64,000 nt of DNA from Daphnia carinata (taxonomy: Eukaryota; Arthropoda; Branchiopoda; Diplostraca; Daphniidae), in contig NC_081337.1 of the NCBI RefSeq assembly GCF_022539665.2, positions 5,308,679-5,372,678 on the forward strand, written 5' to 3'. Of the stretch, positions 42,958 through 63,223 are shown one piece after another. Positions within the stretch are counted from its first letter, which is position 1, and each line of letters starts with the position of its first letter. The translations under genes were made by a program, and so were the position numbers. Below the pieces are notes generated by a model. It searched no databases. It had not been told where the DNA came from and saw only the letters and a list, made by a program, of their open reading frames with translations.

Positions 42958-45827
42958 ATGATGTCGACAGCGTTTATCTACCTGTTGCTGATTGGCGGTC
43001 AGGTACGCGCCCTACCTGTCGAGTGGTCAACATCGGATTCAGCTCTGGTCGAAGTAACGACCAAAATGGAAGCAGACGTCACTGCCGGTGAAGGAGAAGT
43101 GACGAGCCAATTGTTGGACGACGTCATCCTTGACGACATGACCATCAGCAGCCGACAGAAATTCCAATCAGCCGGAGGCATCGAATTTCCCAACACGGCC
43201 TTCATTCCAGGCGATTTGACCGAGCAGCTCTCCGTCGACGGATTCTTCTCCTTGTGGTTCGTCTTCCTCGACGACGACGTCTTCACGTCAGGTAAGTCCC
43301 CGACCTTCTTTTATTTTTTTTTTAGATCACCTAGGGCGATAAAGACTTGCAGCAATTTGTGCGATCAACTAGAACTGGCGGGTTGGTTCAGGTGAACCAC
43401 AAAAAAATTGAGGTGGGAGGGTGGGATAGCACCACGTCAGTAGATAATTTTTTTTTTTTTCTTTGAAAATTGAATAGAAGAGTGGGATAGAAAAAGATGG
43501 CACACTAATGATGTCTCAGAAAGAACGAAAGGGAGAGACAGAAATGAAAAAAGAAGAGATGGGAAAGGAAAACGAAAGCGAATGAGGCCGCAAGGGCACA
43601 TGGCTGTAGTCCAGTGTGGCATTGACATTCGCCAATGTTGGGACGGCTTTTTAGAGAGGAGAAATCGCAATCGTCGTCCTCAAAAATGCATAATTCGTTA
43701 TTCCATTTAGTTTTTACAACAATTTGTGATCAACGTCTTGTTTCTTCTTATCTTAAACAAATTCCTATTAATTACAGACAAAGAGTTCACCATCCTGGCG
43801 CCCAGCAATAGCGCCCCCATGAGGCCGTCGCCCACCGCGGCCGATAAGGACAGAGTCCGCCAATTGCTGCTCAACCACATCGTCCTGGGACGAGCCGTCA
43901 ACATTTCCTCCGATTTATCCTCCACATCGCCACCCTGGTACAAAGACGCCACCATCCACACCAATAAGAAACCGCTAACCGTCACCACGTTGGGTGGTAG
44001 ACAACTCCATTTCAAAACGCGAAAAGGTAAATGATTACGCATCATTATTGACTCCATTTGCGTCCTCACGCGATGTTCGTGTTAGCAGATGGAACAGCGG
44101 TCGTGAACGGAGTCAGGATCGTCGGCAAGGAGGTGCGCGTTCCGCCCAATGGAGTCATCATCGTTTTGGAGGATTACCTGTTTATGGACGAGTATCACGG
44201 TGATGTTGAAGGCTCTGAATCGCAATTGTTTAGCGCCATCCCCATGGTGACGGCGTCCGATGGAACCGATCATTTCCCCATGATCGAATTGGGAACTGCC
44301 CTTGACGACGACAGGTGAGAATACAACGTGATGTGATATATGAAACATTGGATTGTAATTTTGAAATGACAGCGTCGGTGGAGCACATCTTGGAGTTGCG
44401 GTGAAGAGTGAGCCAGTAGGATCGGTGTTGATTGACCGTCAAAAACTGAACCTGACCGATGTCAGTCGGCCGTTCTACGAGGAACTGGTGGAAGTCCTCA
44501 ACTTCCTGCGCAGTGGCACTTCCGATTTCTTACGCTACCTGGAACAAGTCAACATTTCCAGTCTATTCAACGATGGTACATTAGCCCTTCATTTTATTAT
44601 TTAATTCAATCTTGTTGATTGGTTGTTCGAATTGTAGAAGAAGAGTACACTGCGTTCATCCCGATGGATGATTCGTTCGCACAGTGGTACCCCATCGATT
44701 GGGGATTCAATCCATTCGACGTCGCATCGTTTGTTAAAGAGACGATGATGAATCATTTCGTTCGAGGAAGAATAAAGCAAAAGGACGTCAAAGACGGCCA
44801 GTCGATGACGACCCTGGGAGGCAAAACGATCACCTTCTCTTTCTCGCCAGCAGGTAGACATCGTCAAGTTCTATTCCTAATCATTTAACGTCTTATATCT
44901 TCACTTTAAACGCCAAATAGGTAAAATGGCCGTCAACGATGTTGAAGTGTTTGACGGCGACACGCCCGTTTCCCGGGGCAACATCCAATTTGTTGGCGAT
45001 ATCCTTTTTGTCAATTCGACGGTCGTCAGTGAATTGAACGCCAAACATCGCGACGTCGAATCGGCGCCGCTCGTCGGCTCGCCCTGGTACTCGTCCCAAT
45101 TCCTGTCTCACACTTACCGCGAACTCAGTACTCGCCAAAACGCGCCCATCCCTGCTGGAAGTACTAGCCATCCGTCGTTCAGTTTAGCCCTGGACTACAT
45201 CAATCGAACGCAGCCTCAGCTGAGAGACGATTTGCCCAGTCACGACGACTGGCGGATGATCACCTACACTTTCTTCGTTCCGCGCGATTCCGCTTTTTTC
45301 AATTTGTGGCCGCAAGACACGGCCGATCCGTTCGTCATTGACGACGAATTCCGTCGCGAAGTCTTCCTCAATCACTTTGTCCGCCGTCGGTTGTACCACG
45401 ACCGCGACCTCGTCGACGGCGCCGTCCTCACCATGGCCGGCAACCGAACGGCCAAAATCAGCCGCGAAGGAAGTAAGTAGCGAAAATGTGTTGACCATGT
45501 GTTTCGATTTTATGACAATATTCTTTAAAAAATTGTAACACAGATGTAACGAAAATCAATGACGCCATCATTGAAGAAGCAGACATTTTCATCTACAATT
45601 TGGGGACGGTGTTTGTTATCGACCGAGTGCTCTTTGCCAGTCACGAGCAAATCAGTCAGGTGCTGGCCAAGAATGCTGACCGCATCCCGTCGTTCGGATT
45701 AGCTGGAACTGATGGCGCTCTTTTAGCCGGGTCTGCAGTTGATGAGAGTCAGACGCTGGTTGTCGACCTGCTGGATGAGTTGGCGACCACACAATCAACA
45801 GCGGGCAAACTCGTTATTCGCGAATAA
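42958..45827 (+). CDS. Secreted fasciclin protein with three FAS1 domains (midline-fasciclin/TGFBI-like)
   Basis: Extracellular adhesion protein. Exons: 42958-43291, 43778-44026, 44089-44314, 44373-44575, 44638-44853, 44921-45472, 45544-45827; 2064 nt, 687 aa, phases agree. Signal peptide MMSTAFIYLLLIGGQVRA. FAS1 domain 1 (~70-235) has FTILAPSNSA and LLLNHIVLGRAV. Domain 2 (~285-460) has YTAFIPMDDSFAQW, MMNHFVRGRI, TLGGKTITFSF and GDILFVNSTV. Domain 3 (~490-640) has YTFFVPRDSAFFNLWPQD, VFLNHFVRRRL and GTVFVIDRVLF. The PQD-TADP stretch of domain 3 recurs in the downstream array genes, and the intron after ISREGN (phase 1) matches an intron in those genes. FAS1 domains mediate cell-matrix adhesion. 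A poly(A)-like AATAAA lies near 46155. No GPI or transmembrane segment is seen at the C-terminus. Confidence 0.92.
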
Positions 45828-47260: not shown

Positions 47261-48389
47261 ATGGCTACAATTAAAAGTTGGATTGAAAATATTAAACAAA
47301 TCAACTACAGTCCTTGCATTATGTACGTTATGTATGTCATGTGGATGGTCGCCTTTTTGGCTTCGGTGTCGTCCAAAACGACCGGCACCCAAACTGGGAC
47401 AGACGTTGTCACCGAAATTCTGAGTGCCATCAGCGGACGTGAAGACACGCGGAGAGTTGCCGATTATCTCAATTTATCACGCGCTGAACTGGTCAAAGAA
47501 ATGCCTCTCTTTAGTCCTGGTAACTAAAAATCAAACGTATTCGTTTCTTAATGATTATTTTGTGTGAAACAGATGGGACGAAATTAAGTTACACATTCTT
47601 CGCCCCGACGTCGTTTGCTTTCCTGCTGCAAACACCGCAAGACACTGTCGATCCGTTCCTTGTTGACGCCAATCTCCGTCTCAGAGTGTTGATTCGCCAT
47701 TTTGCTAGACAAGGCGTCTCATCTAACGATCTGACCAGATTGGACACGCTGGTCATGGCTGACTCGAGTGTGGCAGCTATTACTCGTACAGCTGGTAATC
47801 GACATATCTTTTTTGCGTTTCTTATTAACTTTTTCAATTCCGAATAGACACAAAGACGTTCATCAATGGAGCAGAAATTCAGAGTTCTTTGTCGTCCTCC
47901 TTTGTCGCTGTTTATATTGTCGATCGAGTGTTTATAGTCGGCAATGAAATAAATGACGCCATCAGCGCCCATTTCCAGAACAATCCGGCAACAATCATCG
48001 GCCTCCCCGAAATGCTGCCGTCAGTAGTTCCAGAAATCGCCATTGTGGAGCCATCTGTTTCGGCACTTGTGCCAACTGTGGGCGGCTTCAGTAGTGTCTC
48101 TCCCAACGATATCGACGTCCAGGACGTGGCAAGATTCGTAACGACGTCGTTGAGTGCTAACGGGGCTTCTCCACTCTTCCTAGTGAGTGTCGACACAGCT
48201 GAAAAGCAAATTGTAGCCGGTGTCAACTATCGACTTCAGCTAAAGTTCAACAACCAATTGGAAAGCGAAGAAAATACTTTAATCGTTTGCCAAGTTGTAG
48301 TCTTTGATCAGCCGTGGACGTCCACTCGCCAAATCAGCTCATCCAAATGTAGTCTATCCCGATCCGCCACTTCTGTTGAAATTGACTAA
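47261..48389 (+). CDS. Array gene 1: secreted FAS1-cystatin fusion
   Basis: Exons: 47261-47519, 47573-47794, 47848-48389; 1023 nt, 340 aa. A hydrophobic stretch (YVMYVMWMVAFLASVSS) after ~24 residues acts as a signal anchor or late signal peptide. The single FAS1 domain is split by phase-1 introns: DVVTEILSAISGREDTRRVA in exon 1; YTFFAPTSFAFLLQTPQD, LRVLIRHFARQG and VMADSS in exon 2; and FINGAEIQ to VAVYIVDRVFI in exon 3. A ~40-residue linker leads to a cystatin domain with all three inhibitory elements: Gly pair in VGGFSSVSPN, QIVAG in KQIVAGVNYRL, and PW in VFDQPWTSTR. The Cys pair CQVV / SSKC fits the cystatin disulfide. Cystatins are tight reversible inhibitors of papain-family cysteine proteases, so inhibition is predicted. 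It has no Kunitz domain, unlike genes at 52131 and 54134. Confidence 0.88.
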
Positions 48390-48898: not shown

Positions 48899-48928
48899 TC
48901 CTGTCTGTAGAAAAGAAGCCATTTCAAG

Positions 48929-49311
48929 ATGAAACTATACGCTGCCCATTTCATAATGATGGCGACCATTTCCGTTGTCGTGTCGTCGAAACCCGTGACT
49001 CAAATTGGAAAGAACATTACCAAACATTCGGCCAACGAGAAACAGGAGACTCGTATTTACCATCCCAGTGGTAGGTTATAATTTTTTATTCTCAGATCAT
49101 TATTGGGTGGGAAACGCCCTTATTTCAAGCTTTGATATATCATTATATTTGCATTGCAGAATTGGAAACGAGTGAGACAGAGAGTTGCATCGAACAGTGT
49201 CAGAGAGACTGGAAATTCGGATATGGTTGGGAGAAATGGGTTGATCACTGCTTACTTCATGAATGTGGCGTTGAACCTGATCCCGACGCTCATTTTTACG
49301 TGACTTTCTGA
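48929..49311 (+). CDS. Small secreted cysteine protein inside the array
   Basis: Exons: 48929-49070 and 49160-49311; 294 nt, 97 aa, phase-1 junction. Signal peptide MKLYAAHFIMMATISVVVSS followed by KPVTQIGKN. This resembles array gene 4 (LMATVLLVSSKPTNIG), and the first exon also ends in phase 1. The second exon is unrelated to FAS1, Kunitz or cystatin: an acidic segment, then four Cys in the pattern C-x3-C-x18-C-x4-C (SCIEQCQRDWKF ... DHCLLHECGV). I do not recognise the fold. The shared signal exon and promoter suggest it arose from an array copy by exon replacement or extreme divergence. Confidence 0.65.
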
Positions 49312-49771: not shown

Positions 49772-50517
49772 ATGTCTACCCTATTCGCATTAGTGGCCGT
49801 CCTTTTGACTGTCGCATCCTCACAAGCGGCAACCGAAACTGGATCTGACATTGTTACGGAAATTCTAAAGGTTCTCAAAGGACATGACGAATTATGGAGA
49901 GTCGCAGACTATTTGAATTCTTCTCGTACCGCCCTCGTCAACGAATTGCCTCTGGAAACTTCGGGTAAATCATTTGCGAGTTAGCAATTTTACCTGTCTG
50001 ATTTAATAAAAAAATGATTTAATAGGACGCAAGTTGAGCTACACATTCTTTGCACCGACGGCAATGGCATTTTTGAGACAGATGCCTCAAGACACAGTCG
50101 ATCCACTCATCATTGACGACGGTCTCCGGACTAAGGTCTTGATCCGTCATTTTGCCCGTCAACGCGTCTCGGCCAACGATTTGGGTAAATTGGACAAACT
50201 CGTTATGGCCGATTCCAAAGAGGCCATTCTCACGCGCACTCCCGGTAAGTCCCGTCCGTTCCATCGATTCGCTGACGCTCACCCCAAGGGCATGTGTTTG
50301 ATTGCTTAATGATTTTTCATTTCCTTTATTGGCTGTAGGCACACAAGTCAATGTGATCAACAAGGCGGAAATCCAGCCGGGAGCTATTCAATTGCCTGAT
50401 AATATTGGCACCATCTACACTGTCGATCGAGTCTTTATGACCGGTGAAGAGGTTGGCCAAGCCATTTCGGCCCATTTTGAACGCAATCCAAATACTGGTT
50501 TTGGCTTCTTCGGTTAA
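49772..50517 (+). CDS. Array gene 3: secreted single-domain FAS1 protein
   Basis: Exons: 49772-49964, 50026-50244, 50339-50517; 591 nt, 196 aa. Clean signal peptide MSTLFALVAVLLTVASSQA. Exon structure and phases (1,1) are the same as array gene 1. FAS1 motifs: GSDIVTEILKVLKGHDELWR; LSYTFFAPTAMAFLRQMPQD, LIRHFARQRVS and LVMADSKEA; then VINKAEIQPGAIQLP and GTIYTVDRVFM. The reading frame stops after HFERNPNTGFGFFG, exactly where gene 1 enters its linker and cystatin. No cystatin remnant is seen downstream. It could be an adhesive or scaffold member lacking inhibitor modules. The start is chosen for its signal peptide; an upstream open frame exists without a better ATG. Confidence 0.88.
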
Positions 50518-52130: not shown

Positions 52131-53463
52131 ATGAAGGCCATGACAGGTCTTCTAGTCTTGATGGCTACTGTCCTTTTGGTGTCTTCCAAACCGACGAATA
52201 TTGGGGACACGGACATTGTCACCGAAATTGTACGAGCCATGGAAGGACGTGAAGAAATGTGGAGAGTTGTCAGTTACTTGAAAGCCTCTCGTGCTGGCCT
52301 GCTGAACGAATTTCCACTCTTCAGCCCTGGTAAGCCAAATAGCATTCACTGTCGTCCATTACTGCAATTGTTTATTCTATTAGATGGAACACAACAAAGT
52401 TACACGTTCTTTGCTCCGACGTCGTTTGCTTTCAGCTTGCAAACTCCACAAGATACGGTCGATCCGCTCTTTGTCGATGACGACCTCCGTCTTAGAGTTC
52501 TGATTCGCCATTTCGCACGCTCACCTGTCTCTTCCGATGACTTGGCCAATGTGGGCAAAATTGTCATGGCCGATTCCAGCGAGGCAGCTCTCACTTATCA
52601 AAATAGTAATGAAATGTGCAGCCTGCCACCTCTCGATCGCACAGATGCCGTGTGTGAGGCCTACATGCCGATGTGGACGTTCACGTCCGCAACGGGCAAA
52701 TGCGAGAGCTACATCTACGGCGGTTGTTTCGGGACGGCCAATCTTTTCAAAACAGAAGAGGATTGTTTGTCAGCATGCGGCCCAACTGCCAGTACATTTT
52801 TTTATAAGGGAATCATTGTCCATGATTGAGTTTAATCCTTGAATTTGATCATTATCAGATACCAGGACGCGGTTGATTAAGGATGCGGAAATCCAGCCGG
52901 AAGCCATCCGCTTACCGCAAGACATCGGTGTTGTTTACATCGTTGGACGTGTCTTTATGAATAGTGACGAGGTCAGTGAGGCGATTTCGTCCCACTTTAA
53001 ACGTAATCCCAATACGGCCCTTTGTCTTGGCCTTCCTTGCTCACCTGGCGAATCACCAGCGCCGGTTGACGATGAAGCGGCGCTCGATATCCGCAATACT
53101 CCGCTGGCTCCCCCACCAGACGTTCCTATGCCGCTCGGTGGTTTCAATGCCGTATCGACCGACGAACCTGACGTCCAAGAGATGGCGGAATTCGCCACCA
53201 AGGCCATGAGTCAGGGTGCCAATCGGGAATACCCGATCACGTTGGTTAAGATAGTCAAGGCCGAGAGACAAGTTGTAGCCGGATTTAATTATATCCTTCA
53301 GTTAGAATTGAAGGAAAACCCCAAGAATGATGCTGTCGTCGTGTGTGACGTGGTCGTCTTTGATCAATCGTGGACGTCCACACGTCAAATCACGTCGTTT
53401 CAGTGCAATCCTAGCTTGGCTATTGCTCCCGAAATTGAATTAGGACTGCCCCCCTTATCTTAA
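52131..53463 (+). CDS. Array gene 4: FAS1 with internal Kunitz domain, then cystatin
   Basis: Exons: 52131-52329, 52384-52791, 52859-53463; 1212 nt, 403 aa. Signal peptide MKAMTGLLVLMATVLLVSS. FAS1 part 1: DIVTEIVRAMEGREEMWR; YTFFAPTSFAFSLQTPQD; LIRHFARSPVS; IVMADSSEAALT. A six-Cys Kunitz/BPTI domain then sits in the same exon (CSLPPLDRTDAVCEAYMPMW, KCESYIYGGC, EEDCLSACG). FAS1 then resumes (LIKDAEIQPEAIRLP, VVYIVGRVFM). So the Kunitz domain interrupts the FAS1 fold before its last strands. Kunitz P1, the residue after the second Cys, is Glu, unusual for a trypsin-type inhibitor. The cystatin follows a Pro-rich linker: LGGFNAVST, RQVVAGFNY, and SW where PW is usual. Predicted secreted, possibly acting on both serine and cysteine proteases. 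Confidence 0.9.
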
Positions 53464-54040
53464 AGTTTGTGGTCGATGAGAACTGCACCGTGCGAACCGG
53501 AAGTTTTTTTCTTTCTCTGGTTTCCTTAACGTTATGTCTGAGTTCAATACAAAGTTTTCCAGACGTCCAATTGGAACTCTGCGATTCATCTTTCTATTTG
53601 CGTAGAAGGGCCACAAGTACTGCAGTAAAAGGACTTTAGAGGGAAAGTTTTTGGGTGCATTTAACACTTGGGTTGGTCCAATTTGGCAGCCTTGAAAGGT
53701 GTAACGACCTACCTTAACAACTGCGCATGGGAACACAACCATCTGCCACCTGGAGTACAGAAGAGCAAGCTACGATCGGGTCAATGAGTGCGTCAAAGGG
53801 CTGCTCAGCTTTCATTCGTCGTTTCTTTTTTCTCCTTTAATAGATTTGTTTCGAACAGAAAATAACTCGTTCTCGTGGTATTTGGAAGTCGATTCCAGTA
53901 GATTTTCCCCTTTTTACCTGTATATGCTTTAAAGTTCAAGAGCCGTGGGGTTCAAGGCTGTAACGGTATCTAATTTAAAATTCTTGAGCCCTAGTGGCTT
54001 TAGTTGCCTAGGCTGATTGTGTCCCATCTATTCTTGGACA
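53464..54040. other. Spacer within array
   Basis: Contains the gene 4 3' UTR and gene 5 upstream region. No coding remnant seen. Confidence 0.45.
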
Positions 54041-54080
54041 TATAAAGATGGGTTGACCCTCTATGGGGTGCATTCAGTTG
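54041..54080 (+). promoter_or_regulatory. TATA plus TTCAGT initiator, array gene 5
   Basis: TATAAAG at 54041-54047 and GCATTCAGTTG with +1 A near 54075, 34 bp apart. ATG at 54134. Confidence 0.55.
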
Positions 54081-54133
54081 CCAGTCCAATTTCCCTGCTG
54101 TTGCTAGCTGCAAACAAAGCTGCTCACAAAGAC

Positions 54134-55472
54134 ATGCACCCAACGACAATCATCGGCCTCTTGGCTTTTTTGGCTTCCCTGTGGGTGTTTGCGACGTCGA
54201 AGCCAACAACCACCGGCCATTATCATCATGGCACTGATATTGTGACCGAAATTCTGCAAGCCATCGACAGACGAGAAGAAATGTGGAGAATCGCAACTTA
54301 CCTGAATGCTTCCCGTGACGACCTTTTGAAAGAATTGCCCTACCTTGATGCTGGTAAAATATATTATTCTCTTCAAATTATTCTTTTATGCTTTAAATCA
54401 TTGCTTCGAAATAGATGGGACGAAAATCAATTACACATTCTTTGCACCGACATCGACGGCCTTTTTGACACAAACTCCACAAGATGCGTCTGATCCGATG
54501 CACGTTGACGCTCATTTCCGCCGTAAAGTCCTTCTTCGCCATTTCGTTCGTCAACATGTTACGACCGATGATCTGACCAGAGTGGACACGCTCTTCATGG
54601 CCGATTCTACAAAGGCTGTTGTAACTAGGAAGAGTTCGATTGAAATTTGTAACTTGCCACCGATCCACCCGAGCACAGCTACGTGCATGGCTTTTTTCCC
54701 GTCTTGGACGTTCAACTCCAAGTCAGGCAAATGCGAGAGATACGTGTACGGTGGATGCCACAGAACTGAGAACCTGTTCGATACAGAGGAAGACTGTCTA
54801 GCCAAATGTGGGCCAGCTGTCAGTAAGTTGATTATGCATTGCTAATTTTTAATATCATACTCACGAAATTGCCAATCTATAGATACGGTCAGGTCATTTC
54901 TGAACGAGACGGAAATTCAAACAGATGCCTGTGCATGCAGTGAACTCGTTCACGATTTTTGCACCATGTTCGTGGTCGATCGTGTCTTCATGGACCGTAC
55001 AGAGGTGATCGACGCTCTCAGTAAACAGCCCAGCACAGGCCAAATAGGTCCGTTCAGTTTGACTGCAATTCATTCATCGCCGTCCAATCGAATCCCTAAC
55101 CACGAACCAAGTTCTATTCATCCGCTTCGTACCACTCCACTCGAACCAATCGGTCCCATACTAGTCGGTTATAATAACGTATCTCCCAGCGATCCAGATG
55201 TCCAAGAGATTGCCCAATTTGCTGTTGATGAACTGAGCCGGGGTGCCCACTCTTTGTCATCTCCACTTGTATTGGTCAACGTCATCGCAGCTGAAAAGCA
55301 GGTCGTGGCCGGAGTCAATTACAAACTCAAATTATCGCTTCAAAATGCCGAACTCGGAGCCATTGCTTGTGATGTGGTTGTCTTTGATCAGTCGTGTTCT
55401 TCCACCTGCCGCGTCAGCTCGTTCAAGTGCAATCCGTCCTTCGTCAGTAGCATCCCCAACGTCAATGAATAA
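54134..55472 (+). CDS. Array gene 5: FAS1 with internal Kunitz domain, then divergent cystatin
   Basis: Exons: 54134-54353, 54415-54822, 54883-55472; 1218 nt, 405 aa. Signal peptide MHPTTIIGLLAFLASLWVFA. Exon 2 is 408 nt, the same length as in gene 4, and again joins the FAS1 core (YTFFAPTSTAFLTQTPQD, LLRHFVRQHVT, LFMADSTKAVVT) to a Kunitz domain (CNLPPIHPSTATCMAFFPSW, KCERYVYGGC, EEDCLAKCG). P1 is Met, which in other Kunitz inhibitors favours elastase- or chymotrypsin-like targets. FAS1 ends with FLNETEIQ and FVVDRVFM, with two extra Cys between (ACACSEL). The cystatin keeps KQVVAGVNYKL and the N-terminal Gly (LVGYNNVSP), but the second hairpin PW reads SC (FDQSCSSTC), gaining two Cys, so inhibition may be weaker or altered. 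Confidence 0.9.
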
Positions 55473-56772: not shown

Positions 56773-57165
56773 ATGAAGAGGATGTCGCCTAGTGTCATAG
56801 CGTTTTTACTTTGTTTGTTCGTGGTGTTTCCTTTCGATGAGGCCAATTCGGCTTCATTTGAGCGACAGAAGCCCGGTGGATACTCGTCCGTCAACGTAGA
56901 AGACGTCGACGTCAGAGAAATGGCGGAGTTCGCCACCAGCGCCATATCGTTGAGCAGCAACTTTGGACCGTCTCATCTCATCAGGATCGTTAAGGCGGAG
57001 AAGCAAATCGTGGCCGGTACGAACTACAAATTGACGCTTGAACTGGACAGCATCGTAGACGGAGATATTGTGTGTGACGTCATCGTTTTCGATCAGCCTT
57101 GGACCGATACTCGTAAACTGAGCGAATCCAGTTGCATGGCAGTTTGCACAAGCTCAGATGTCTGA
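56773..57165 (+). CDS. Array gene 6: stand-alone secreted cystatin
   Basis: Single exon, 130 aa, the usual size of a type-2 cystatin. Signal peptide MKRMSPSVIAFLLCLFVVFP (then FDEANS). The inhibitory wedge is intact: PGGYSSVNVEDVDVREMAEF at the N-terminus, KAEKQIVAGTNYKLTLEL in the first hairpin, and VFDQPWTDTR in the second. The Cys pair IVCDV / ESSC fits the conserved disulfide, with two further Cys (MAVCTSS and the preceding ESSC region) near the C-terminus. It matches the cystatin halves of genes 1, 4 and 7 closely, so it may have arisen by loss of the FAS1 exons or may represent the ancestral cystatin unit. Expected to inhibit cathepsin-like proteases outside the cell. Confidence 0.88.
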   Translation: MKRMSPSVIAFLLCLFVVFPFDEANSASFERQKPGGYSSVNVEDVDVREMAEFATSAISLSSNFGPSHLIRIVKAEKQIVAGTNYKLTLELDSIVDGDIVCDVIVFDQPWTDTRKLSESSCMAVCTSSDV

Positions 57166-57667
57166 TTTTGTTTTTATCATTAAACCATATGGCATTGCAG
57201 TTTATTTGTAGTCCTTTTAATAAACCACACCTATTCGATACGCTGGGAGAGAAGACGTGCAGTAGTTAAAATTGAAATGGAGCACGGCCACTTTTCATCT
57301 GTTGCGATGATCTCAATATTTATGGCCTCGTAGTCACGTTCAAATTAACTCAGATCATCGTTCCTGTAACGTCTCATTACCTGCCTCAGGTGTCATCGCT
57401 TTGGTTTTGGTTCTCATTTTGAACCAATGGTTGAGCACAGTCCGCGTTGAAATGCCAAATAATGAAATCAGAAAGCATCAGTTTAAGTAAGTACATGGTG
57501 TTGACTGTTTGTTCATGTTTAATGTGTTGTATGAAAGACACGTCATTCGCAGTTTAGCCACCATTGAACGCGTACAACTTGTTCAGGTATGGTCTAGAGT
57601 TATATTAGTTTCATGGTGCTGTACATTTATTACATTTCATATTTTAACATTTTTCAGATCAAGAAAT

Positions 57668-59420
57668 ATGATGAAGAGGCTTTTGTTAATTCTGATGCTG
57701 AATGTTGGGATGTGGGCGATTCATATTGATCCTGATACAGACGAGTTCTGGGAAGATGGTAATGTTGAATACATTTACAACGATATTGAATTTCTTCCCA
57801 GTAGGCCTTTGACATTTGTTGAAAGCCAAACCACAAGGCCAGATGCAGCTGTTGAAGTCCTTACGACGCTATCGCCGACGCCCGTGTCAACCATCGCAGA
57901 ACCATCAACGACTACATCTGCAATAATGACACCCTCGGTAACGACGGAAGAACACACGACTGTATCGCCAACGACTGTTCAAACTAGTATCCAAACAACC
58001 GCTATTCCAACCACTATTCCGACCACTGCCCCACCAACGACGGAGCCAACCACTACGCCGACCACTACGCCGACCACTATCCCAATGACTGAGCCAACTA
58101 CTACGCCAACAACTACGCCAACAACTACGCCAACAACTACGCCAACAACTACGCCAACAACTATCCCGACGACGGAGCCAACAACGCAGCCATCCACTAC
58201 GCCGACGACGGTGCCAACGACAACGGTGCCAACGACAACGGAGCCATCCACTACGTCACCAACGACGGAGCCGAACACTGCGCCGACCACAACGCCGACC
58301 ACTGCGCCGACCACTGCGCCGACCACTACGCCGACCACTACGCCGACCACTACGCCGACCACTACGCCAACCACTATCTCAATGACGGAGCCAATAACGG
58401 AGCCAATCACTACGCCAACGACTGAGCCAACAACGACTAAGCCAACAACGATGGAGCCAACAACGATGGAGCCAACAACGATGGAGCCAACAACGATGGA
58501 GCCAACAACGATGGAGCCAACAAAGACGGAGCCAACAAAGACGGAGCAAATCACTACGCAAATCACTACGCCAACCACTACGCCAACCACTACGCCAACC
58601 ACTACGCCAACAACTACGCCAACAACTACGCCAACAACTACGCCAACAACTACGCCAACAACTACGCCAACAACTACGCCAACGACGACGGAGCCAACAA
58701 CCACCATCCATACCACGACGGCCAACGACAACGGTGCCAACGACCACCATCCACTACGTCACCAACGATGGAATCAAAGACAGAGCCAACCAAAGCAAAC
58801 CACTACGATAACCACTGCGCCACCAATGGAGCCACTACGCCGACCACTACGCCGACCACTACGCCGACCACTACGCCGACCACTACGCCAACCTCTATCA
58901 CAATGACGGCGCCAATAACGGCGCCAATCACTACGCCAACGACTGAGCCAACAACGACTAAGCCAACAACGATGGAGCCAACAACGATGGAGCCAACAAC
59001 GATGGAAACAACGATGGAGCCAACAACGATGGAGCCAACAAAGACGGAGCCAACAAAGACGGAGCAAATCACTACGCCAACCACTACGCCAACCACTACG
59101 CCAACCACTACGCCAACCACTACGCCAACCACTACGCCAACCACTACGCCAACTACTACGCCAACCACTACGCCAACGATCGAGCCACCCACCACCATAC
59201 CAATGGCTCCGATCAAAAAACTACCCCGATAACGATGGAAAAAGACAGAGAAAGGAAGAGCAAACCACTAAATAACTCCTCCGCCAGAATGGAGCCAATC
59301 ACAACCCCACCAACGACGGAACCACTCACTACCCCACTAACGACAGAGCCAATCACGAGCCCTACAACAAATCCCACAACGATCTCCACTAAGTGGTCAT
59401 CACTCAATTACCGCCAGTGA
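57668..59420 (+). pseudogene. Thr/Pro mucin-like secreted protein, reading frame broken at two or more places
   Basis: ATG 57668 (a second at 57671) gives signal peptide MMKRLLLILMLNVGMWAI, an acidic segment (HIDPDTDEFWEDGNVEYIYN), then Ser/Thr/Pro sequence and about 330 codons of PTTTPTTTP-type repeat (12-bp unit near CCAACAACTACG), a likely O-glycosylation domain. A 5' UTR intron is likely (CAGTTTAA|GTAAGT at 57487, acceptor before 57659). The repeat frame shifts near 58722-58770 and again near the A run at 59214-59219; each downstream block is open in a new frame (58768-59232, 59235-59420). One 57-nt GT-AG segment (58731-58787) would restore the first frame if spliced. Real decay, unrecognised small introns, or assembly errors in the repeat could explain the breaks. 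It may also be the N-terminus of the next gene. Confidence 0.55.
57990..59215 (+). repeat. 12-bp coding minisatellite (Pro-Thr-Thr-Thr) with an internal ~450-bp duplication
   Basis: Units close to CCAACAACTACG or CCGACCACTACG run through 57990-58700 and 58830-59180. A composite block with ACTATCTCAATGACGG, then ATGGAGCCAACAACG units, then AAGACGGAGCCAACAAAGAC and TCACTACG units occurs at about 58370-58690 and again at about 58890-59180, so a larger segment was duplicated. Long antisense ORFs (Val/Gly-rich) are by-products of the repeat. Confidence 0.85.
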
Positions 59421-59491: not shown

Positions 59492-62400
59492 ATGCTAAAA
59501 AAGAACGGTGTCACCAATTTCCCACCCCTTTCCTGTCAATCCATTGTCACTGATCACCAATTTTGCTTTGTTTGTCCACCGCAATTTGGAATACTAAAAA
59601 TGTTTGAAACTCGATGCACATGGATCCCGCACGCAATTGCCAACGCTGATGGATTCGTGGATGAACGCAAGTTCGACGCCTTGTCAAAAGATGTTTACGC
59701 AGATTTGCGCAACATGTATCGCAAATTACGAACCAACGACCCGAAACAGCTGGACGAGATTCCAGAAGCAGTTCGTGTCGCATCTCACGATGTACCGTTG
59801 ATTAGTAACGGCTTTAGTACTTTCAAGGATCTGAATGTGGATGACGCTCAGGTCAAATCTATTGCTGCCTTTGCTACCACAGCCTTGCAAGCGAATCGTA
59901 ATTACAAACGTCTTGTTTTGAACAAATTAATCAAAGCTAAAGTTATGGCCGGCAGAAACTTCAAACTAACTCTGCAATTTACGAATTTTGATGCCAATGG
60001 TTATCCCGGTAAATCTCTTATTTGCGTCGTGGTTGTTTTCGTCCATCCCATAATCGAAACCCGCGAACTCGTGAGTCATTCGTGTTCTGTTGCACCGAAG
60101 AAACTTGCGTCTCAACCTGAAACGGACTTGGTCAATGAAATTCTGTTGGCTATCAAAGAACGAAAAGAATTATGGCAAATTGCCAATTATCTGAATGCGT
60201 CTCGAGAGATCCTGGTCAAAGATTTGCCTCTCACCAGTCCCAGTAAGTAAAATTAAAGAATTGTTTGCCCTTGATTTGCAATCTATTTTGCAATTTAACT
60301 TCCAGACGGGACAAAGTTGAGTTACGTTTTCTTCGCACCGACGTTCCTGGCCTTCAGGATGAAGGCAATAGGGAATGCTGCTGATTTTGATTCGTTTTTG
60401 GTTAATCCTGATATCCGTCATAAATTTTTACTTGGTCATTTTTCACGCCAAAACATTTCGTCCAAAGAACTGAAGCAATTGAACAATCTCTCCATGGCTG
60501 ATTCAACAAAGACTGTTCTTTCACATGCATCCAGTAAGTTTGTATATGCATTTTACTTGGAATTCTACAATAATGTTGTTCTTAAATTCTCCGGCCAAAT
60601 GCAGATATAAAAAATGGAGTATGTAAGACGCTCAAGTGCAAGGAAACATTATGTAAATTACCACCAATGCAAGGGAAAAAAGGGATGGCGTGTAGGGCCA
60701 ACGTCCCCAAGTGGACTTTCAATTTCACATCGGGCATCTGTGAGAGTTACACGTACGGCGGTTGTGGAGGATCGAAAAATCTGTTCGATACGGAAATTAT
60801 GTGCCGGATGACGTGTAGTTCAATAAAGAGTGAGTATTATGAAAATTTTTATTAGTGAAATTTGTGTTGATCAGAACTATATGAAATCAATTGTAGCCTA
60901 AAATTTCGACTAGTTGTCTTAATTCCATCTGTTTTGTTCATCTTTATTTTAAATTTTATGTAGATGGAGATATGCATTTTATAAATACAGCTGCCATCGA
61001 GCAGGAAACCATCCAGCTAGCGAATGGTTTGGGCACAATCTTCGTCATCGATCGTGTGCTTGGCGGACCTACCAGGAAGGGCAATGTCAGGTATGACTTG
61101 GACAATGTATGTCAGTTTTACCATTCTCTTAACTTTATTTTCGTTTACCCTAGTTTTGCAAAACCCGTTAGATCAACGAATTCAAAAACTACAGCAGTTG
61201 ATGAACCAAAAGCAGTTGATCCCACTACACCATTGCCAGGTGGATACAATGTGCTGGAGAAGAATGGCAAAGATGTTGAGGAGATGGCACAGTTTGCCAC
61301 CAACGTCATATCAACTAAACTGACAGATTGCGATCTTATTGGAGTCGTCAAAGCAGAATCACAAGTCGTAGCTGGCACGAACTTGAAGCTGACCCTGAAA
61401 TTGGCACCAATCGATACCCCTGCAGTTCACGAGAAATTTATTTGCGAAGTCGTCATCTTCGACCAACCATGGACCAAAACCCGAAACGTCACCTCCTTTA
61501 AGTGCACCTCCAACGAATTTAACATTGTCACAGAAATCTTATCTACTATCGAGGAACGAGAGGAATTATCACCGGTCATCCGTTACCTCAACGCTTCTAG
61601 AGAAGACCAGGATTTTTTGATGGAGTTACCTTTTATCAGTTATGGTAAACGCTTTTATTTTTATTTCTTGCACAAACATGTATCTACATCGCTACTTGTA
61701 TCTCTAACTAAACGTAAATGTATTTTAAAGATGGAAAATCGTTGAATTGGCTGAGTTATACCTTCTTTGCCCCCACATCATCGGCCTTTACGTCTCAAAT
61801 GCCACAAGATGCCGCCGATCCGCTTATTATTGACGCTGATTTCCGACGCAAAGTCCTTCTCCGTCATATCGTTCACCACCACATGACGCCGATGGATATC
61901 GTTCACGCAGACAAGCTCATCATGGCGGACTTGAAACAGGCAAATGTAACCCACACAGCTCGTGAGTGACACTTAGATACGATTCAATATTTCTGCCCTC
62001 ATCTGATGGAATTTAAATGTGTTCCTGATTATTTTAATAACCTGAATGTACGTTATCAAAACAGAAAACAATAATACCCTGAAAAAAGTGAACGACGTCT
62101 GTAACCTCCCGCCTCTGCTGAAGCCTAAAGATACGATTCAAATTGAATGCAGAGGCTACATTGAATTGTGGACGTTCAATTCCCACACCGAAGAATGTGA
62201 AATGTACATATACGGTGGTTGTGATGGATCTGAGAATCTTTTCAACACCCATATGGCCTGTGAAGCCGCTTGCGGTGAATTCAGTACGTCGCATTTAAGT
62301 TAACAATTTCTTTGTCTTTTCATAATTTTTGTTTGCCACGGCAGGTCGAAAAATGCACATGATAAACGGTGCAGAAATTCAAACAGGTATGATTGAACAA

Positions 62401-63223
62401 GGCTTCGGCGTCGTCTTTATTATCGATCGCGTATTCATGACCCGTGATGAAGTCAGCGCTGTTTTCAACAAACATCCCAATACCGACCTTGGCATCTATG
62501 GTTCAGCTGAACCGCATATTCAAACATTGACAAGTAAACCTGATGAACCAGAAGAATCCGAAGAACCTCTTGAAGTCACTGGAGCTACAGAAGTCATGGA
62601 AGCCACAGAAGTGACAGGAGCTACAGAAATCACGGCAGCTACAGAAGTCACGGGAGCAACAGAAATCATAGACGTAACAGAAGTCATAAAAACCACTGAA
62701 GCACAAAAAGCCGAGGAGCCCGAAGACGCGGAAGAAGCTGAAGAAGCAGAAGACGCTGAAGAACCAGAAGACGCTGAAGACGCTGAAGAAGCTGAAGACG
62801 TAACGAAAACCGCAGAAGCAAAAGATACCGAACAAACAAAGAAAGTCGAAGAGGCGGATGAAACCGAAGAAGCCCAGGGAAACGATAAAAGTAAGTCGTT
62901 TGACGTTTAATTTTGACACAAACATTAAATACAGTCTAGTCTTAGTCAATTACACCCCGGCACAAGTCGATGACGTCGAAGTTCAAAAAATGGCCTTGTT
63001 CGCTACCAAAGAGTTGAGTCAGAGCAACGAGGCAATGTCTCCGTTGGTCATGACCAGCATTCTCTCGGCTGAAAAACAAATCGCTCCTGACATTAAATAT
63101 CGCCTTCGTTTAGAATTCAAGGGTGGATCGGAAGAGACATTGATATACTGCACCGTGATAGTGGATGAAGCTGCTGCAGAGGGAGGTTTGCCAAAAATGG
63201 CCGAGTCTGATTGTGTAGATTGA
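59492..63223 (+). CDS. Array gene 7: multi-cassette cystatin / FAS1[Kunitz] polyprotein
   Basis: Exons: 59600 (or 59492)-60242, 60306-60533, 60605-60829, 60964-61090, 61154-61644, 61731-61961, 62065-62283, 62345-62890, 62940-63223; 2994 nt from ATG 59600, 997 aa, phases agree. Order: cystatin a (degenerate: KAKVMAG, no PW); FAS1 with Kunitz exon (YVFFAPTFLAF; P1 Arg in MACRANVPKW); cystatin b, intact (PGGYNVLEK, SQVVAGTNLKL, FDQPWTKTR); FAS1 with Kunitz exon (YTFFAPTSSAFTSQMPQD; P1 Arg in IECRGYIELW); ~110-residue Thr/Glu/Ala acidic linker; cystatin c, degenerate (KQIAPDIKY). Each cystatin runs into the next FAS1 within one exon (SHSCSVAPKK to DLVNEILLAI; FKCTSNEFNIVTEIL), so this is one fused gene rather than neighbours. 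Here Kunitz is a separate phase 1-1 exon. Neither ATG gives a signal peptide, so the true N-terminus is probably upstream. Confidence 0.8.
60605..60829 (+). other. Kunitz/BPTI exon, first cassette of gene 7
   Basis: Symmetric phase 1-1 exon of 225 nt. The six Kunitz Cys are present (LCKLPPMQGKKGMACRANV, GICESYTYGGC, IMCRMTC), plus two extra Cys ahead of them (GVCKTLKCKE). P1 is Arg and P1' is Ala, the canonical trypsin-inhibitor pair. Confidence 0.85.
62065..62283 (+). other. Kunitz/BPTI exon, second cassette of gene 7
   Basis: Symmetric phase 1-1 exon of 219 nt with six Cys (VCNLPPLLKP, IECRGYIELW, EECEMYIYGGC, HMACEAACG). P1 is Arg and P1' is Gly. The loop between Cys 1 and 2 is longer than in bovine BPTI. 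Confidence 0.85.
62560..62890 (+). repeat. Coding low-complexity repeat: Thr-Glu-Val then Glu-Asp-Ala linker
   Basis: Repeats of about six codons (EVTGAT, EVMEAT, EITAAT) are followed by AEEPEDAEEAEE-type repeats. It joins the second FAS1 domain to the third cystatin of gene 7 and should be an extended acidic spacer. Confidence 0.8.

Follow-up and report, generated by a model that had tools for sequence, protein, structure and literature searches.

FAS1 domains are known from TGFBIp/BIGH3, periostin, stabilin-2 and insect fasciclin I, Kunitz domains from the Kunitz/BPTI inhibitors (MEROPS I2), and cystatins from MEROPS I25 (cystatin C, tick sialostatin L2, mialostatin). Exon shuffling is usually pictured as the addition of a domain between domains, and the Kunitz domain of the amyloid precursor protein sits between domains, not within one. 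We analyzed a stretch of 64,000 nucleotides of Daphnia carinata DNA (the window; NCBI RefSeq assembly GCF_022539665.2, contig NC_081337.1, positions 5,308,679 to 5,372,678 of the forward strand), in which two genes, g4 and g5, combine the three families. A single FAS1 domain in genes of this type has a whole Kunitz domain set between two of its consecutive strands, and a cystatin comes after the FAS1 domain. In contrast to the FAS1 proteins named above, the Daphnia fold is interrupted by a whole Kunitz domain. Unlike the Kunitz/BPTI inhibitors, the Daphnia copies are nested in another domain and have Glu (g4) or Met (g5) as the P1 residue, although they resemble near relatives in that family, the Daphnia long-loop domains P0068 of D. 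carinata and P0044 of D. pulex, in the six Cys, the Pfam match, the phase 1-1 exon and the 11-residue Cys1-Cys2 loop. The cystatin differs from the I25 members in forming the tail of a FAS1-Kunitz chimera and in its loop 2, where Pro is replaced by Ser in g4 and Trp is lost in g5. Acquisition of a Kunitz domain by exon shuffling, as proposed below, has a parallel in the amyloid precursor protein, according to the sections available of PMC3927616.

A literature search, mainly of openly accessible papers, found no published description of a FAS1-Kunitz-cystatin protein, in agreement with a first-pass annotation of the window that was aware of no such protein; domain lists of these proteins already exist as uncurated database annotation. 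The available sections of an arthropod survey credit D. pulex with 22 Kunitz and 10 cystatin proteins and do not mention a FAS1-Kunitz fusion (PMC5673224). In the available part of a study of D. similoides, an unnamed Fasciclin unigene is among those up in sexual females, and it is not linkable to the g4/g5 family (PMC5037449).

The two genes are laid out as follows (window positions):
52131..53463, forward strand: g4 (NCBI LOC130699316), spliced model with a signal-like start, FAS1 interrupted by Kunitz, and a cystatin
52131-52329, 52384-52791 and 52859-53463, forward strand: exons of g4, both introns in phase 1
52386..52598, forward strand: g4 FAS1 core 5' of the Kunitz domain, GTQQSYTFFAPTS...MADSSEAALTY (Pfam, scan after excision, structure model)
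52617..52778, forward strand: g4 Kunitz domain, six Cys, 11 residues between Cys1 and Cys2, P1 Glu
52861..52959, forward strand: g4 closing FAS1 strands, TRTRLIKDAEIQ...VGRVFM (scan after excision, structure model)
53137..53415, forward strand: g4 cystatin, residues ~296-388, QVVAG, loop 2 DQSW
54134..55472, forward strand: g5, architecture as in g4, exons 54134-54353, 54415-54822 and 54883-55472
54648-54809, forward strand: g5 Kunitz domain, P1 Met

The spliced g4 protein is identical to LOC130699316 of D. carinata over 403 of 403 residues. Both proteins begin with a hydrophobic, signal-like N-terminus (judged by eye), followed by the 5' part of FAS1, the six-Cys Kunitz domain, the closing FAS1 strands, a linker and the cystatin. 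The FAS1 core and the Kunitz domain lie in a single uninterrupted exon (52384-52791 in g4, 54415-54822 in g5), which makes the fusion at the 5' side independent of splicing. One short GT-AG intron (67 bases in g4, 60 bases in g5) precedes the closing FAS1 strands and the cystatin. The order FAS1-Kunitz-FAS1-cystatin that the first-pass annotation had read at 52131 and 54134 was thus confirmed by the spliced models, Pfam and the structure model, and the limits it gave, 52384 and 54822, are the start of exon 2 of g4 and the end of exon 2 of g5, respectively.

Pfam scans placed all three families over their curated cut-offs in both proteins. The Kunitz domain (PF00014, I2; cut-off 21 bits) was matched with an expectation value (E) of 1.1e-13 and 51.6 bits in g4 and 1.4e-12 and 48.0 bits in g5, and the cystatin (PF00031, I25) with E of 9.1e-9 and 5.4e-9. 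The match to the Fasciclin profile (PF02469; cut-off 22 bits) was weak before excision of the Kunitz domain (E 2e-5, 25.2 bits in g4; E 6.5e-6, 26.8 bits in g5) and spanned the 5' FAS1 part only, namely positions 12-80 (g4) and 14-78 (g5) of the 123 in the profile. When the Kunitz domain was excised in silico, the match extended over positions 12-122 and 14-121, with 33.6 bits each. The excised match reached position 121-122 in all five nested copies of D. carinata (33.6, 33.6, 32.5, 51.5 and 26.0 bits), the last value being that of a copy on contig C4 (P0005). In a structure model built from a 38-row alignment, strand E133-140 ends at the 5' FAS1 segment of g4 and the closing strands complete the FAS1 domain, so that by both the excised scan and the model the fold continues on the two sides of the insert. 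The expectation that FAS1 would be detected on either side of the Kunitz domain therefore held after excision and in the model, but not in the raw scan.

Relatives of these genes occur in several Daphnia species. In D. magna, whose relatives include OUZ56_008508 and OUZ56_008507, the relative of g4 shows 87% identity, and that of g5 (OUZ56_008507, P0007) is 46% identical to g4 and groups with g5 at 100/99 in the trees. D. sinensis has the C4 form, and the D. pulex model DAPPUDRAFT_39875 (P0039) begins at the MADS motif and continues into the Kunitz domain. Seven further open reading frames run from FAS1 into Kunitz in frame (P0034-P0038, P0047, P0052), of which P0047 and P0052 contain just the last FAS1 residues before the Kunitz domain. 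Among the matches listed (120 of 299, from a search that reaches relatives sharing short words), no named organism other than Daphnia had FAS1 together with Kunitz. These data bear on the idea that the architecture is a gene-model artefact, with the Kunitz domain belonging to another gene that runs through the locus. The NCBI model may indeed be in part predicted. However, a single open exon holds both FAS1 and Kunitz in three of the five copies in D. carinata, the seven reading frames above keep the two in one frame, and the domain order is repeated at two genomic locations and in several Daphnia species. We consider an artefact extremely improbable, and reject in particular an error of gene prediction on the basis of the open exon, the matching NCBI model and the relatives in other species.

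The genes g4 and g5 belong to an array of FAS1 and cystatin genes, the other members of which in the window are:
42958..45827, forward strand: g1, multi-FAS1 protein with phase-1 introns 44027-44088, 44854-44920 and 45473-45543
47261..48389, forward strand: g2 (LOC130699318), FAS1 and cystatin without Kunitz, phase-1 intron 47795-47847 at the insertion site
49772..50517, forward strand: g3 (LOC130699319), FAS1 only, without Kunitz, phase-1 intron 50245-50338 at the insertion site
56773..57165, forward strand: single cystatin gene with a signal-like start, inside the array
59600..63223 (5' end uncertain), forward strand: g7, cystatin - FAS1[Kunitz] - cystatin - FAS1[Kunitz] - acidic linker - cystatin
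60306-60533 and 60964-61090, forward strand: first FAS1 of g7, with a nested Kunitz domain
60605..60829, forward strand: first Kunitz domain of g7, separate exon, phase 1-1, P1 Arg
61731-61961 and 62345 to ~62439, forward strand: second FAS1 of g7, with a nested Kunitz domain
62065..62283, forward strand: second Kunitz domain of g7, separate exon, phase 1-1, P1 Arg

The fifth nested copy, P0005, lies behind two cystatins on contig C4, the window being on contig C7. The two genes named by the first-pass annotation are genuine, but its list lacked three nested copies, the two of g7 and that on C4, as well as the Kunitz-free sister genes g2 and g3. The 108-Mb genome contains 58 Kunitz matches, of which these 5 are nested in FAS1 at the same place with a cystatin downstream. 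All of the other 53 are more than 50 kb away from any FAS1 match listed (tables read by eye), although the FAS1 listing omits some real units (the C4 copy, g2) and a diverged FAS1 near another Kunitz domain could escape it. Chance juxtaposition was rejected, since 5 of 58 Kunitz matches share one FAS1 position with a cystatin downstream.

We favor, with moderate confidence, the reading that the D. carinata FAS1 protein with a Kunitz domain inserted via a phase-1 intron and a cystatin tail is secreted and inhibits proteases of two classes while borne on a scaffold. FAS1 would be that scaffold, binding matrix or membrane and holding both inhibitory heads, an adhesive role suggested by analogy at the level of the family. 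The cystatin head would act on papain-like proteases and the Kunitz head on serine proteases, with a specificity depending on the copy (Glu or Met/Leu at P1 in most, Arg in g7). The cystatin of g4 has the profile match, QxVxG, the N-terminal Gly and the loop-2 Trp, with SW in place of PW. Both cystatins also exceeded the cut-off of the SQAPI profile (PF16845; 41.3 bits in g4, 47.1 bits in g5), which we take to be a cystatin-fold profile; inhibition of aspartic proteases was rejected as a conclusion from this match, because profile similarity shows the fold only. Within window positions 54883-55420, the closing FAS1 part of g5 (TDACACSELVHDFC) and its cystatin loop 2 (SCSSTC) contain extra Cys, which are retained in P0007 of D. 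magna and could possibly form additional disulphides.

The P1 residue was examined in 17 nested Kunitz domains, a set that includes many orthologues, so that the counts are not independent: Glu was found in 8, Leu in 4, Met in 3 and Arg in 2. An 18th, the truncated first Kunitz domain of P0039 (P1 Tyr), was left out. By comparison, 36 of the 53 non-nested Kunitz matches in the genome fit the six-Cys pattern, and 21 of these 36 have Arg or Lys at P1. A basic P1, the trypsin-inhibitor type and optional in Kunitz domains, is absent from g4 and g5 and occurs among the five D. carinata copies only in the two of g7. With Glu at P1 in g4 and Met in g5, both retained in their D. magna relatives, the trypsin-like target that the first-pass annotation had proposed for these genes is not upheld, whereas the nested six-Cys Kunitz, the cystatin and the signal-like N-terminus of its reading stand. 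The serine-protease target probably differs by copy, and the residues make trypsin an unlikely one for g4 and g5. The excess of Glu over Arg in the nested domains would also suit a different explanation, in which the Kunitz domain is no longer inhibitory and serves as a stable, disulphide-rich spacer or binding module that diversifies a FAS1 loop, so that the cystatin alone, or neither head, would be active. However, P1' is Ala or Gly in all 17 nested domains and the P1 of g4 and g5 is unchanged in D. magna, which is more than a spacer requires, and chymotrypsin- or elastase-like enzymes can be inhibited through Met or Leu at P1. We regard a loss of inhibition as rather unlikely.

Several observations weigh against a nested, two-headed inhibitor. 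Scanned whole, P0005 and P0007 gave 20.4 and 20.2 bits, below the Fasciclin cut-off, and the scan of whole g7 reported just one of its two FAS1 units separately. The Kunitz domain itself was modelled at moderate confidence only (block predicted local distance difference test, pLDDT, 59-84). The loop between Cys1 and Cys2 has 10-15 residues in the 17 nested domains versus 8 in 25 of the 36 others, which alters the binding loop, and Glu is unusual at P1, so that the g4 Kunitz domain may inhibit nothing. Among the cystatins, that of g5 is without the loop-2 Trp (DQSCSSTC), and the QxVAG motif is absent from two of the three in g7.

The introns point to a route by which the Kunitz domain could have entered FAS1. 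The insertion point is a phase-1 intron site common to Kunitz-free FAS1 units of the same array, namely three units of g1 (correspondence judged by eye), g2 and g3. Both Kunitz domains of g7 are exons of their own between phase-1 introns (class 1-1). Of these two introns, g4, g5 and the C4 copy have kept the phase-1 intron on the 3' side and lack the one on the 5' side, and we infer a former 1-1 state for their Kunitz exons. The stand-alone long-loop gene P0068 (contig C1) likewise has a phase 1-1 Kunitz exon, and the nested domains fall within a 43-row tree group that includes long-loop Kunitz domains (99/87). The N- and C-terminal ends of a Kunitz domain lie close together, which may be why the FAS1 fold tolerates the insert. 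On this view, the phase-1 intron of FAS1 would have received a class 1-1 Kunitz exon from the long-loop group of Daphnia, and three of the five copies in D. carinata would later have lost the 5' intron, which brought Kunitz and FAS1 into one exon. That class 1-1 exons go into pre-existing phase-1 introns is a published rule, as given in the sections available of PMC3927616.

The trees are less favorable to this route as one event. The Kunitz-bearing FAS1 units were monophyletic in 0 of 200 bootstrap trees with each of two row sets, and enforcing one Kunitz-bearing clade costs 8 log units (approximately unbiased, AU, test, p 0.09). Since the Kunitz-bearing copies are not united, one insertion event is not demonstrated. 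Alternatively, this FAS1 intron may have gained and lost Kunitz cassettes repeatedly, or the cassettes may have been swapped among tandem copies by gene conversion. Such independent insertions or exchanges would account for the intermixing of Kunitz-bearing and Kunitz-free FAS1 units in the trees and for the uncertain grouping of the g7 Kunitz domains with their counterparts in g4 and g5. They would also fit P0036, with Kunitz, and P0008 of D. pulicaria, without it, which are identical over 65 of 65 residues and diverge just before the Kunitz domain; this identity suggests a recent exchange, with gene conversion, cassette exchange or alternative exons as candidate causes of the identical FAS1 exon start. 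On the other hand, the AU p value leaves one clade unrejected, the group is defined by the trait and includes two long branches, and the Kunitz alignment is short with many open forks. We give repeated insertion or exchange somewhat less than an even chance.

The gene structure thus differs from addition between domains in that a module is inserted mid-domain, and Kunitz-free, separate-exon and fused-exon forms coexist in the same genome. Should the heads prove active, inhibitors of two classes would be displayed on FAS1 as a natural scaffold, and the variation of P1 would open protease targets to direct testing in a standard ecological model animal. A bolder and rather improbable extension is that exchangeable Kunitz cassettes (P1 Glu, Met, Leu, Arg) dock at the FAS1 hairpin intron and have been inserted, removed and swapped on a near-constant scaffold, which would give lineage-specific two-headed, surface-bound inhibitors against changing dietary or pathogen proteases.

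More cystatins and FAS1 follow downstream of g7. Two multi-cystatin genes lie directly 3' of the window (L017 1491-3287 and 4494-7166, the second being LOC130699339, 882 aa), and another cluster of cystatin matches is found on contig C10 (L020, C10:3184000-3193000). Just 5' of g7, window 57491-59420 holds Thr/Pro-rich, mucin-like repeat reading frames in shifting frames with a signal-like start at ~57668, which may be the first exons of g7 or a separate mucin gene. Between g2 and g3, window 48911-49311 contains a pair of small Cys-containing open reading frames with a signal-like start.
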